A stretch of DNA of 64,000 nt from Geodermatophilus obscurus (GTDB lineage: Bacteria; Actinomycetota; Actinomycetes; Mycobacteriales; Geodermatophilaceae), in assembly GCF_900143215.1 (NCBI RefSeq), contig NZ_FRDM01000005.1, forward strand, positions 186,001 to 250,000. The letters are read 5' to 3'. Below the pieces are notes generated by a model. That model did not search any database, was not told the origin of the DNA, and was given only the letters and a program-made list of their open reading frames with translations. Positions 5,966 to 25,159 of the stretch are shown piece by piece. The position numbers were made by a program, and so were the translations under genes. Numbering within the stretch: the first letter of the stretch is position 1; each line of letters opens with the position of its first letter.

Positions 5966-6622
5966 GTGCTGAGCCGCGAGGAGTACCTCGCCGCCTGGTC
6001 GACGTGGCACGGCGGGGCCGACCCGACGGCCAGCCGGCTGGTGCACGGCTGGTTGTCCGGGGTGTATGCGCTGGCCCGCCGGTTCGCGGGGCTGCCGCCG
6101 GTCGCGGTGACCGCCGCGGGGCTGCTCGTCGCCGCGGCCGCCGTCGTCCCGGCCGCGGCCGGCGGCCCGTGGCTGGTGCTCGCCGGGGTGCTGGTCGGGT
6201 TCTCCGCCGTGCTCGACGGGTTGGACGGCGCGCTCGCGATCGCGACCGGGCGGGCGTCGCGCCGCGGGTTCGTCCTCGACTCCGCGGTCGACCGGCTCAG
6301 CGAGGGGGCGTTCGCCGCCGCGCTCTGGGTGGCCGGCGCCCCCGGCTGGCTGGCCGCGGCGTTCGGCGCGCTCTGCTGGCTGCCGGACTACCTGCGCGCC
6401 CGGGCCGGGCAGGCCGGCGTCACCGAGACCGGGGAGCTGTCGGTCTGGGAGCGCCCCACCCGGGTGGTGATGACCGGCTTCACCCTCGGCGGGGCCGGGG
6501 TGGTGGCCGGCCTCGGCTGGTCCGTTGCGGTGGTCACCTGCGGAACGGCGGTCGGCTGCCTGCTCGGCGTCGTCGGCGTGGCCCAGCTGGGGATGGCGCT
6601 GCGGCGGGCGCTGGCCGACTAG
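5966..6622 (+). CDS. CDP-alcohol phosphatidyltransferase family protein
   Basis: A 218-residue membrane enzyme of the class I CDP-alcohol phosphotransferase family, which transfers a phosphatidyl-type group from a CDP-alcohol to an alcohol acceptor. The family motif D-G-x2-A-R-x8-G-x3-D-x3-D is present as DGALAI-x8-GFVLDSAVD, so the usual Arg is Ile here while all acidic residues remain. About five hydrophobic helices are seen. GTG 5966 is used; an in-frame GTG at 5939 would add nine residues. The lipid product is unknown. Confidence 0.75.
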   Translation: MLSREEYLAAWSTWHGGADPTASRLVHGWLSGVYALARRFAGLPPVAVTAAGLLVAAAAVVPAAAGGPWLVLAGVLVGFSAVLDGLDGALAIATGRASRRGFVLDSAVDRLSEGAFAAALWVAGAPGWLAAAFGALCWLPDYLRARAGQAGVTETGELSVWERPTRVVMTGFTLGGAGVVAGLGWSVAVVTCGTAVGCLLGVVGVAQLGMALRRALAD

Positions 6623-22180: not shown

Positions 22181-23122
22181 TCAGACGCCGGAGAGCAGCC
22201 GTACGTGCCAGGTGCGGCCGTGCGCGGGGTGCACCGCCCGGCAGGTCAGCGGCGCCGACTCCTGCGACGGGCGGCTCTCGACCTCGGTGACCACGTCACC
22301 GTCCGGCCCGGCCAGGGTGACCACCCACCGCTCGATCTCGGCTCCGGCCGGGGTCAGCCGGCGCACGTCGCGCGGCAGCAGGTCGTCGACACCGAGCAGC
22401 GAGAGCTCCGCGCGGGCGGTGTGCTGGGCCGCCTGCGCCGGCGCGGGCACCCCCGACCGGCCGCGCAGCCAGGGCAGCGCGACCCGGCCGGCGGCGTGCG
22501 CGGCGACCAGTTCGGCGCCGTCGTCGGGCACCTGCCCGTAGTAGAAGCCGTGCGGCAGCACGAGCACGTTGCTGGCGAACCGGCAGCCGCCCAGGTGGCT
22601 GCACTCCCAGGCGTCGTCGGTGGGCATCGTCCGGGCCAGCGGCCGGCCGCGCAGCGCGCAGCACGCGTCGTGCCCGCCGTGCGCGCACACCAGGTAGAGC
22701 GGGTCGTCGGTGCGCGTCCCCACCGACCCGTCCCACGGGACGTCGACCAGTTCGGCGTCGGTGTCGCGCACCGACCACCACACGCCCAGCGCGCCGGGCC
22801 GGCCGTCGACGTAGGCCCAGCGCCGCTGCGAGTCGGCCAGCCGGTCGCCGGGGCGGCGGACCAGCAGCACCCGCACGCCCTCGACCCGTGCCCGGTGGGT
22901 GAGTCGTGGTGCGACGGCCTGGTCGAAGCGGGACTGCGTCAGGGCGTCCTTGCCCCACGGACCGGGCTGCTCCACCAGCAGCCAGCGCTGCGCCGGCGAC
23001 GCGGTGGCCACGCAGGAGTCGCCACGGACCAGCGCCTGCACCGAGCAGCGGTCCGGATCGAGCCGTCCTGCAGGCAGTCCCGGCGCTGCCGCGACCTGGC
23101 AGAAGTCGGCCGGAGCGCTCAC
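22181..23122 (-). CDS. Sucrase/ferredoxin-like (thioredoxin-fold) protein
   Basis: A 313-residue sucrase/ferredoxin-like family protein. Its C-terminal thioredoxin-like ferredoxin part shows CAHGGHDACCALRGRPL and ECSHLGGCRFASNVLVLP, giving the cysteines for a [2Fe-2S] cluster. The biological role is unknown. The GTG start at 23122 overlaps the stop of the last of three tandem family B minicistrons, which also supply the GAGGAGG ribosome-binding site. The next gene upstream on this strand is the JmjC-cupin oxygenase, another iron protein. Confidence 0.78.
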   Translation of the reverse strand: MSAPADFCQVAAAPGLPAGRLDPDRCSVQALVRGDSCVATASPAQRWLLVEQPGPWGKDALTQSRFDQAVAPRLTHRARVEGVRVLLVRRPGDRLADSQRRWAYVDGRPGALGVWWSVRDTDAELVDVPWDGSVGTRTDDPLYLVCAHGGHDACCALRGRPLARTMPTDDAWECSHLGGCRFASNVLVLPHGFYYGQVPDDGAELVAAHAAGRVALPWLRGRSGVPAPAQAAQHTARAELSLLGVDDLLPRDVRRLTPAGAEIERWVVTLAGPDGDVVTEVESRPSQESAPLTCRAVHPAHGRTWHVRLLSGV

Positions 23123-23199
23123 GTCCCCTCCTCGCCGGCGCTCGGACGGCCCGGAACCGGCCGTGCTGTACCCACGGGTGACCTCGCGAGCTCGGTCAC
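23119..23199 (-). repeat. Family B minicistron, tandem copy 3 (nearest the gene)
   Basis: A 26-codon frame, GTG to TGA, starting VTELARSPVG and ending PSAGEEGT. The TGA overlaps the GTG of the sucrase/ferredoxin gene. The tandem period is 77 bp, which is exactly 27 codons minus the 4-nt overlap. Confidence 0.75.
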
Positions 23200-23276
23200 G
23201 TCCCCTCCTCGCCGGCGCTCGGACGGGCCGGAACCGGCCGTGCTGTGCCCATGGAGAACCTCGCGAGCGCGGTCAC
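23196..23276 (-). repeat. Family B minicistron, tandem copy 2
   Basis: A 26-codon frame starting VTALARFSMG and ending PSAGEEGT. It overlaps copies 1 and 3 by GTGA. Its palindromic 5' end has two substitutions relative to the other copies. Confidence 0.75.
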
Positions 23277-23353
23277 GTCCCCTCCTCGCTGGCGCTCGGA
23301 CGGGCCGTGACCGGCGGTGCTGTGCCCATGGGTGACCTCGCGAGCTCGGTCAC
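23273..23353 (-). repeat. Family B minicistron, tandem copy 1
   Basis: A 26-codon frame starting VTELARSPMG and ending PSASEEGT. The GTG lies 19 nt after the oxygenase stop. This copy is the closest of the three to the single unit at 9615-9695. Confidence 0.75.
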
Positions 23354-23372: not shown

Positions 23373-24683
23373 TCACGTTCCGTTCCCGGGCGCGCGCTCA
23401 CGCCCCCCATGGTCCTCCGCGGTCGCACCGGGCACGGTGGCGATCGACTCGGTCACCAGCCGCCGGGCCAGGGTGAGCTGGTCGGGGGCGTCGAGCCCGG
23501 GCAGGTCGGCGACCTTGAGCTCGCCGGCGGCCAGCAACCCGGCCACCGCCGGCCGGGTCTCCGCGGGCAGCTCCAGGGACCGCCGTCCCGCGACCAGGGT
23601 GACCCGCCCGTCGGCGGCCTCGCGCAGCCGGCAGCGCAGCCGGCGGCGCAACCGGAGCACGGTGTCGGGGGAGAGGGCGGCCGCCGCGGTCGCCTGGGCC
23701 AGCGGGGCCACCGGTTCCGGGCGGACCTGCGACCAGGTGCGGGCTCGCAGCCGGTCGGCGACCTCGGCGGGGTCGACGCGGTCCAGCCAGCCCTTGAGCG
23801 CGGTCACGACCGTCGCGACGTCGTCGGCGACCGCGGCCGGGTCGGCGAGGTCGACGCCCAGCGGCAGCGAGCGGCGCAGCTCCGGGTCCTCGGTGGCGAG
23901 CACGCGGACCAGGTCCAGGGCGGACTCCGCGGCCGCCCACCGGGTGACCGGGTGGATGCCGACGGTCAGGTGTGCGCTGATCGCGCCGAGCGCGGTCGCC
24001 GAGTGCAGGTAGCCGCGTGGCAGGTAGAGAGCGTCGCCGGGGCGCAGCACCGCGTCGATCACCGGCTCGCGCTCGGCGGCGGCGGCCACCGCGGCGGCCC
24101 GGTCGTTCCACGGCTGGGTGCGCAGCGGGTCGGTCAGCACCGGCTCGTGGATGCGCCAGTGCTTCTCGCCGGCCACCTGCAGGACGAAGACGTCGTGGAC
24201 GTCGTAGTGCGGGGAGAAGCCGCGCGAGGACGGCGGGGTGATGTAGGCGTTGACCTGCGTCGGGTGGCCGAGGTCGGCGGCCAGCTGGTCGGCGAACTCG
24301 ATCAGCGGCGGCCACAGCCGGTGCAGCCCCTGCAGGACGACGGTGCTGCCGTCGGCGAACAGCCGCAGCACCGCGTCGGAGGAGACCTGGTCGGCGACCT
24401 CCGCGCCGGCGCCGCCGGACGTGGTGAAGCGCTTGGGGTCGACGACCGCGCCGTCCTTGGCGATCCGCAGGAACGGGGTGCGCAGTCCGCGGCGGGACAG
24501 CAGTTCGTCGACCGCGGCGAGGTCGAGCAGGTCGGCGAAGGAGCTGCCCGTCTCCTCGGCGCGCGTCAGCAGCGGCCGGCGGGCCCAGTACTCCTCGGCG
24601 AAGACCCGCGGGTCCAGAGCGGTGCACCGACCCAGGGCCGGCCGGGGATCCGGCCGGCCCTGGGCGGCGTGGTCCTCGGTCAG
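23373..24683 (-). CDS. JmjC-type cupin oxygenase (RoxA/NO66-like, cupin_4)
   Basis: A 436-residue Fe(II)/2-oxoglutarate oxygenase of the cupin_4/JmjC class; relatives hydroxylate ribosomal proteins. With the start used here the iron triad is H159-x-D161 (FSPHYDVHD) and H227 (LPRGYLHSATAL); EEYWARRPLL and VNAYITPPSSRGF are family marks. No ATG or GTG is found near the N-terminus. The frame begins best at CTG 24683, which overlaps the TGA of the (DGGA)n peptide gene in the same xTGA arrangement used across the window. A frameshifted fusion to the peptide is possible but less likely. The neighbouring peptide is a candidate substrate. Confidence 0.78.
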   Translation of the reverse strand: MTEDHAAQGRPDPRPALGRCTALDPRVFAEEYWARRPLLTRAEETGSSFADLLDLAAVDELLSRRGLRTPFLRIAKDGAVVDPKRFTTSGGAGAEVADQVSSDAVLRLFADGSTVVLQGLHRLWPPLIEFADQLAADLGHPTQVNAYITPPSSRGFSPHYDVHDVFVLQVAGEKHWRIHEPVLTDPLRTQPWNDRAAAVAAAAEREPVIDAVLRPGDALYLPRGYLHSATALGAISAHLTVGIHPVTRWAAAESALDLVRVLATEDPELRRSLPLGVDLADPAAVADDVATVVTALKGWLDRVDPAEVADRLRARTWSQVRPEPVAPLAQATAAAALSPDTVLRLRRRLRCRLREAADGRVTLVAGRRSLELPAETRPAVAGLLAAGELKVADLPGLDAPDQLTLARRLVTESIATVPGATAEDHGGRERAPGNGT

Positions 24684-24943
24684 GCGGAACCGTCCGCGCC
24701 ACCGTCGGCACCGCCGTCCGCGCCACCATCGGCACCGCCGTCCGCGCCGCCGTCCGCGCCGCCGTCGGCACCGCCGTCGGCACCGCCGTCCGCGCCGCCG
24801 TCGGCACCACCATCGGCCGAGCCGTGGCCGGCGCCGCTGTCGGCGCCGCCGTCGGCGCCGCCGTCCGAACCGCCGCCCGCCGCGCCGCCGTCGGCCGGGC
24901 CGTGGCCTTCGGTGCTGGTCATGTCGTCGTCGTCGAGAGCCAT
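24680..24943 (-). CDS. Small (DGGA)n tandem-repeat peptide
   Basis: An 87-residue peptide. Residues 1-43 begin MALDDDDMTSTEG and are Gly/Asp/Ala rich. Residues 44-87 are ten DGGA units plus a final DGSA. Codons vary synonymously between units (GAC/GAT, GGC/GGT, GCC/GCG) while the amino acids do not change, so the protein sequence appears selected. The ATG at 24943 has a GGGGAGA upstream. The stop overlaps the oxygenase start. No family is recognised: it could be a modified peptide precursor, a calcium-binding acidic peptide or a structural tail. No signal peptide or cysteine is seen. Confidence 0.68.
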   Translation of the reverse strand: MALDDDDMTSTEGHGPADGGAAGGGSDGGADGGADSGAGHGSADGGADGGADGGADGGADGGADGGADGGADGGADGGADGGADGSA

Positions 24944-25159
24944 GGGGTCTCCCCATCACGTCGGGTCCGGGCCGCCGGCCGGCGGCCCTCCAGGGATGCT
25001 GTACCTCGGCCATCCTGCTCTCACACGCCTGCTCCGACCAGCGGCGACGGCAGCCGGGCAACAGCTCGGTCACGGTGCCGCGTCGAGGTGCCGCGGTGGT
25101 GCGACGGGCGTTAGCGTCCTCCCTCGGGTCGAACACGCGTTCGAGGTCGGGAGGGTCGG
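24944..25159. other. Divergent regulatory region, (DGGA)n peptide and dinB
   Basis: This 216-bp gap serves the peptide-oxygenase unit on the minus strand and dinB on the plus strand. It holds a TANNNT hexamer (TAGCGT, 25112-25117) and a LexA box on the dinB side. Nothing distinctive was found on the peptide side. Confidence 0.5.
25129..25144. promoter_or_regulatory. LexA (SOS) box upstream of dinB
   Basis: TCGAACACGCGTTCGA, a perfect inverted repeat, lies 16 bp before the GTG of dinB and 12 bp after the putative -10 TAGCGT. It is identical to the dnaE2 box. Confidence 0.88.

Follow-up and report, generated by a model that had tools for sequence, protein, structure and literature searches.

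A conserved operon of up to three genes, carried by many soil actinobacteria, probably makes and modifies a ribosomal peptide, its genes encoding a precursor, a JmjC oxygenase that would hydroxylate it and, in most cases, an iron-sulfur partner protein. The operon lies within a 64,000-nucleotide stretch of a Geodermatophilus obscurus contig (hereafter the window) and appears to be a peptide-modification system not described before, which might handle iron. The substrates of JmjC oxygenases tend to be difficult to identify; for one widespread, unstudied branch of these enzymes the operon supplies a probable one, and the predicted signature is a series of +16 Da increments in the mass of a short peptide.

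Table 1. Features of the operon, with positions counted from the first nucleotide of the window.
Feature	Position	Strand	Basis
Suc_Fer-like [2Fe-2S] thioredoxin-like ferredoxin gene, third gene of the operon	22181..23122	-	PF06999
JmjC Fe(II)/2OG oxygenase gene	23373..24683	-	start assigned to CTG 24683-24681, which overlaps the stop codon of the peptide gene
GC-rich hairpin, 15-bp stem, 4-nt loop	24631..24664	-	just 3' of the peptide stop, in the JmjC N-terminal coding stretch
Asp-repeat precursor-like peptide gene, 87 aa	24680..24943	-	translation; homologues upstream of JmjC gene
Eleven in-phase Asp tetrads, (DGGA)10-DGSA	24683..24814	-	translation; codon test
GGGGAG ribosome-binding-like site of the peptide gene	24949..24954	-	sequence
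Promoter-like pair GTGTG-N16-GGTA, conserved ahead of the peptide gene	25002..25026	-	alignment

The peptide gene opens with ATG, closes with TGA and has a translation that starts MALDDDDMTSTEGHGPADGG, the full product reading MALDDDDMTSTEGHGPADGGAAGGGSDGGADGGADSGAGHGSA-(DGGA)10-DGSA before the stop. Translation of the minus strand thereby confirmed the ten DGGA units plus DGSA that the original prediction had placed at the C-terminal end, and all other sequence statements of that prediction, which named no strand, hold as well. Searches of Pfam and NCBIfam with the window peptide gave no match. Upstream, a GGAG[GA] motif occurs in 48 of 49 regions from relatives (shuffled mean 25.9), and the pair GTGT-N14-18-GGTA in 43 of 49 (shuffled mean 0.2, where the shuffles preserve base content only and the 49 regions share descent). 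The GTGTG/GGTA pair resembles actinobacterial stress-sigma (SigB/SigF) promoters; Rfam, sigma-70 and terminator scans found nothing.

As predicted, the oxygenase frame begins at a CTG that overlaps the peptide TGA (24682-24680), and near this start the window has no in-frame ATG, GTG or TTG. The original assignment to the JmjC-type oxygenases, with an intact H159-x-D161/H227 motif, is borne out by a Pfam JmjC_2 match (98.4 bits against a curated cut-off of 22) and by the HxD...H metal triad of H159, D161 and H227 (numbered from the CTG), which is invariant in 56/56 aligned relatives. In an AlphaFold2 model of the enzyme (pLDDT 91.8, pTM 0.88), residues 1-11 fell below a pLDDT of 50 and were disordered. 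Foldseek gave NO66 as the best match (4e4h_C, E 1.5e-27), and VIA aligned 392 residues to NO66 4y4r_A (Z 29.2, rmsd 5.2, 26% identity), followed by MINA53 (4bxf_B, Z 27.9) and YcfD (4ccl_A, Z 20.0), with JMJD5/JMJD7 and FIH aligning over the JmjC core only (Z near 13-14). Because model residues 10-422 align to 4y4r_A, the predicted C-terminal dimerisation and winged-helix part is as in NO66, and the model places the window enzyme in the NO66/MINA53 fold, that is, the JmjC_2 or ribosomal-oxygenase fold family. One relative, in Kribbella pratensis (L182), carries upstream of position 6001 a long Gly/Pro/Asn/Leu-repeat N-terminal extension of the JmjC protein, between the peptide and the conserved domain.

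The enzyme was found in 49 of 61 related genomes and, at E<=1e-20, in 89 of 296 genomes drawn from the class; named genomes with it include Geodermatophilus, Blastococcus, Modestobacter, Klenkia, Kribbella, Actinokineospora, Paractinoplanes, Cellulomonas, Micromonospora and Amycolatopsis. Among the 93 sample loci that scored at least 230 bits, 92 had at least 400 nt of upstream DNA, and all 92, from many actinobacterial families, carried an Asp-rich or acidic ORF directly upstream: 88 passed an automatic peptide filter, two of the DxDxTD type were recognised by eye (L047, L048) and two were acidic without repeats (L089, L095). Sufficient upstream DNA was available for 72 of the 80 named loci, every one of which passed the filter, while the reverse strand of the same regions gave 0/92 and 0/72; the sample and named sets overlap in species and are not independent. 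The filter was also passed by 10 of 11 loci at 130-230 bits (L109 failed) and by none of the 13 below 130 bits. In seven of these 13 (L119, L121, L123 and L125-L128) there is instead a conserved ORF of 35-38 aa with a GGDxDGTDxSSDFI-like core at its end, and upstream of the other six (L051, L117, L118, L120, L122 and L124) none of the peptide types was found. Our first peptide filters overlooked eight loci (L034, L069, L070, L072, L094, L123, L125 and L182), in all of which the peptide was present on inspection, the cause being a longest upstream ORF that started far upstream or a long enzyme N-terminus. A DGGADGGA DNA pattern with at least three matches occurred in 31/296 genomes, 30 of which also have the JmjC gene (the exception being G299), a coincidence beyond chance. 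The pairing of peptide and enzyme is thus well supported by comparison of loci, as is one part of the original prediction of a dedicated substrate, namely that the peptide is a dedicated partner of the oxygenase: far from generally lacking the peptide, close homologues with sufficient flanking DNA had the upstream ORF at 92/92 and 72/72 loci. A short precursor gene beside a modifying-type enzyme, kept as a pair, is a RiPP-type trait. The two acidic ORFs without an Asp repeat, L089 and L095 (family f48), accompany close JmjC relatives with no adjacent Suc_Fer gene; they are natural loss cases and useful controls.

Two JmjC genes lie in other surroundings. L216 (G044 contig C409, 5562-14508) is a candidate RiPP cluster with an 88-aa Cys-containing precursor-like ORF, a JmjC domain fused to a second 2OG oxygenase domain, a radical SAM protein with a SPASM match and one frame with YcaO and TfuA domains. 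The distant JmjC gene of L120 (G200 contig C14) is downstream of a TfuA-looking ORF, which suggests another RiPP cluster.

Evolution of the repeat was followed in 71 distinct tracts from the window locus and its relatives, each with at least five in-phase Asp tetrads and together comprising 606 units. The number of units per tract ranges from 5 to 17 with the tetrad kept, a point that the original prediction had proposed to check: with Asp at position 1 by construction, positions 2-4 were Gly, Gly and Ala in 557, 569 and 597 of the 606 units. Between adjacent units, 1037 codon changes were synonymous and 125 non-synonymous against a mutational opportunity of 33% synonymous, a contrast to be weighed by effect size rather than by p-value since duplication makes the units non-independent. 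This agrees with the earlier remark that synonymous codons vary between units while residues are held, and mainly non-synonymous evolution of the repeat, named there as contrary evidence, was not what we found. Judged from its codons, the protein sequence of the peptide is kept by purifying selection. A low-complexity artefact or a spurious ORF was ruled out by the conservation and the codon pattern. In the Geodermatophilus ruber named locus L139 and in L015, the DGGA tract is broken by a short charged segment, LIDKVRDKVRDVIGGDKG.

Three types of peptide could be distinguished, namely DGGA, DxDxTD and the 35-aa form, and the type tracks the oxygenase tree (65 enzymes), with five label changes where the minimum is four and the shuffled mean 23.6. 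A conserved N-terminal segment, MALDDDDMTS, is followed by the variable repeat, and a possible division into leader and core is clearer in the 35-aa type.

Between peptide and enzyme, the hairpin occupies a stretch that also codes for roughly residues 7-18 of the oxygenase. A perfect stem of at least 10 pairs occurred in 73 of 142 distinct loci, compared with 3 of 710 control segments taken from these genes, and folding energy was lower than in all five own controls in 103 of the 142, a set from which loci below 40% identity, without a detected peptide or without five control segments, as well as repeated sequences, are omitted. RNAalifold recovered the stem from 16 Geodermatophilaceae sequences; one pair occurs as C-G, G-C, A-U, U-A and both G-U wobbles, and double changes are seen at three pairs, so the hairpin covaries. 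Among 51 distinct loci of at least 72% identity, 48 retain the overlapping CTG (GTG replaces it in one), and 33 of these 48 have no downstream canonical start ahead of the conserved domain; two of 53 Geodermatophilaceae-like entries had no peptide by the filter and were left outside the 51. Enzyme starts vary in more distant loci. The CTG overlap points to translational coupling with a weak start that, together with the hairpin, would hold the enzyme below the peptide. Since the start overlaps the stop in 48/51 loci and no slippery heptamer was seen by eye, we prefer termination-reinitiation to a programmed frameshift giving a peptide-JmjC fusion.

These features bear on how the peptide and the oxygenase are related. 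It seems unlikely that the peptide is a binding partner (an acidic disordered chaperone, an inhibitor or a regulator) and that the oxygenase has a different protein as its substrate, for instance a ribosomal one, as NO66, MINA53 and YcfD do. The fold is that of the ribosomal oxygenases, and acidic repeats can serve as mimics or competitors; nevertheless, a variable repeat number with strict residue spacing is what multiple equivalent modification sites would be expected to give, and a precursor made in excess would suit the hairpin and the weak start that separate the peptide from the enzyme. Several observations go against a dedicated precursor hydroxylated on Asp: among solved structures, the closest relatives modify His or Arg in ribosomal proteins rather than Asp; L089 and L095 retain the enzyme while their upstream acidic ORF has no repeats; L109 and six of the 13 loci below 130 bits have no such peptide; and the DGGA type has no conserved protease or exporter beside it. 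We also think it improbable that the enzyme oxidises some other residue of the peptide, be it a spacer His or Asn or Gly/Ala backbone positions. Spacers often read GxHDGGA or ANPGGH, and NO66 and MINA53 are described in a passage of PMC4543633 as hydroxylating His; however, some peptides have no His, Asn is present in few, and the DxDxTD and 35-aa types are without those spacer modules, Asp being, on our reading of the sequences, the sole potential target common to the three types. Very improbable is a role of the upstream ORF as a regulatory leader only, in which translation of Gly/Ala/Asp codons would control the hairpin and hence oxygenase expression: the GC-rich hairpin after the ORF and the enzyme start over the ORF stop would suit it, but with mostly 60-140 aa the ORF is long, conservation affects its protein sequence and N-terminal motif rather than its codons, and a gap of about 160-240 nt separates the ORF of the 35-aa type from the aligned start of the enzyme.

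The product of the third gene matches PF06999 with 55.4 bits (curated cut-off 34.9), and the motifs CxHGxxDxCC and SHxGG[C/D]R are kept in most Suc_Fer-like copies. When one locus from each of 20 genera was compared, a Suc_Fer-like gene just downstream was the only neighbour widely conserved outside Geodermatophilaceae, with matches at 15 of the other loci. Where 950 nt or more of downstream DNA was available, it was present in 78 of 90 sample loci (at least 230 bits) and 67 of 78 named loci and missing at the remaining 12 and 11, so it is not essential to the peptide-enzyme pair. The window genome has a single Suc_Fer-like copy, the operon's own, and the family is matched in 159 of the 296 sampled genomes; being this common, it is its adjacency, not its presence, that is evidence. 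Suc_Fer-like genes also adjoin DxDxTD peptides. In the 35-aa type, a FhuF-like protein takes the Suc_Fer place, adjacent in L119, L121 and L123, and in L213 a FhuF-like gene lies about 2 kb downstream; an S9 prolyl oligopeptidase gene was upstream in both 35-aa loci examined. By manual count the FhuF-like cysteines are spaced C-C-x11-C-x2-C, where the FhuF motif is quoted as C-C-x10-C-x2-C in an excerpt of PMC11965169. A search of the 11 named loci without Suc_Fer for an adjacent reductase gave no FhuF-like match. Comparison of neighbours across the 20 genera found no protease or exporter conserved beside the DGGA type; RiPP clusters can be without genes for either. In the window, three tandem 77-bp copies lie between the JmjC and Suc_Fer genes (23119-23353, minus strand), each containing a ribosome-binding-like site and an ORF of 26 codons; read by eye, the stop of each ORF shares the sequence GTGA with the start that follows, which gives the impression of a duplicated start region.

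We infer from these comparisons that the peptide is the substrate of the oxygenase. The first gene would then yield a precursor in which the MALDDDDMTS segment precedes a tract with Asp at each fourth residue, and the NO66/MINA53-fold oxygenase would hydroxylate it. Asp is the likely target because it is common to all three peptide types, and C-3 the likely position by comparison with MINA53/NO66, which hydroxylate at C-3, and with FIH, which hydroxylates Asp in ankyrin-R (PMC4543633). The hairpin and the weak CTG start, coupled to peptide termination, would keep peptide above enzyme, and the [2Fe-2S] protein might keep the oxygenase iron ferrous or reduce metal on the hydroxylated peptide. 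The original prediction had envisaged, as a possibility, an acidic beta-hydroxyaspartate polymer-like peptide. Its acidic repeat stands, and the Fe-S third gene, the hairpin, the CTG conservation and the other peptide types, none of which it had noted, suggest more than a polymer, namely an arrangement like that of RiPPs in which a redox or iron protein takes part.

An iron role for the Fe-S partner is a hypothesis, favoured by two different [2Fe-2S] families in the same place, one of them the ferric-siderophore reductase family, and by the photoreduction of bound iron that is reported for hydroxyaspartate siderophores (PMC10484230). Against it, the Fe-S gene is missing beside the pair in several lineages, and IdeR-type iron boxes were not enriched upstream (mean best match 9.7/19 upstream against 9.5 within the JmjC gene), which argues mildly against an IdeR-controlled iron system. 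Quite tentatively, the Asp repeat might become a beta-hydroxyaspartate chain that holds ferric iron in the cell, with the adjoining [2Fe-2S] protein reducing the iron for its release; if so, genes for a siderophore-like or iron-buffer peptide would be spread across actinobacteria.

In the open subset of PubMed Central that we searched, no account of a JmjC enzyme paired with an Asp-repeat peptide came up, though one could be in print elsewhere, and text searches with either the repeat or the 35-aa core returned no paper. CinX hydroxylates Asp in a lanthipeptide, and beta-hydroxyaspartate siderophores, which are non-ribosomal, offer a further parallel. Those with FhuF-type reductases would share the Fe(III)-binding group if Asp is hydroxylated here (PMC10484230 and PMC11965169), and a [2Fe-2S] protein gene adjoins our pair, FhuF-like in one type. 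No iron-regulator site was found at the operon. Hydroxylation of a RiPP precursor by a JmjC enzyme is already known from BipG of biphenomycin biosynthesis, which, according to an excerpt of PMC12707348, acts at Orn of a short core in a ribosomal precursor peptide and belongs to a larger cluster with a metallopeptidase and a radical SAM enzyme, whereas here one enzyme faces an Asp repeat with no conserved protease. NO66, MINA53 and YcfD (JmjC, cupin_4) share their whole-length fold and HxD...H triad with the window enzyme; a ribosomal substrate is a feature of the NO66 group, whereas the gene for the window enzyme keeps company with those for a repeat peptide and an Fe-S protein.
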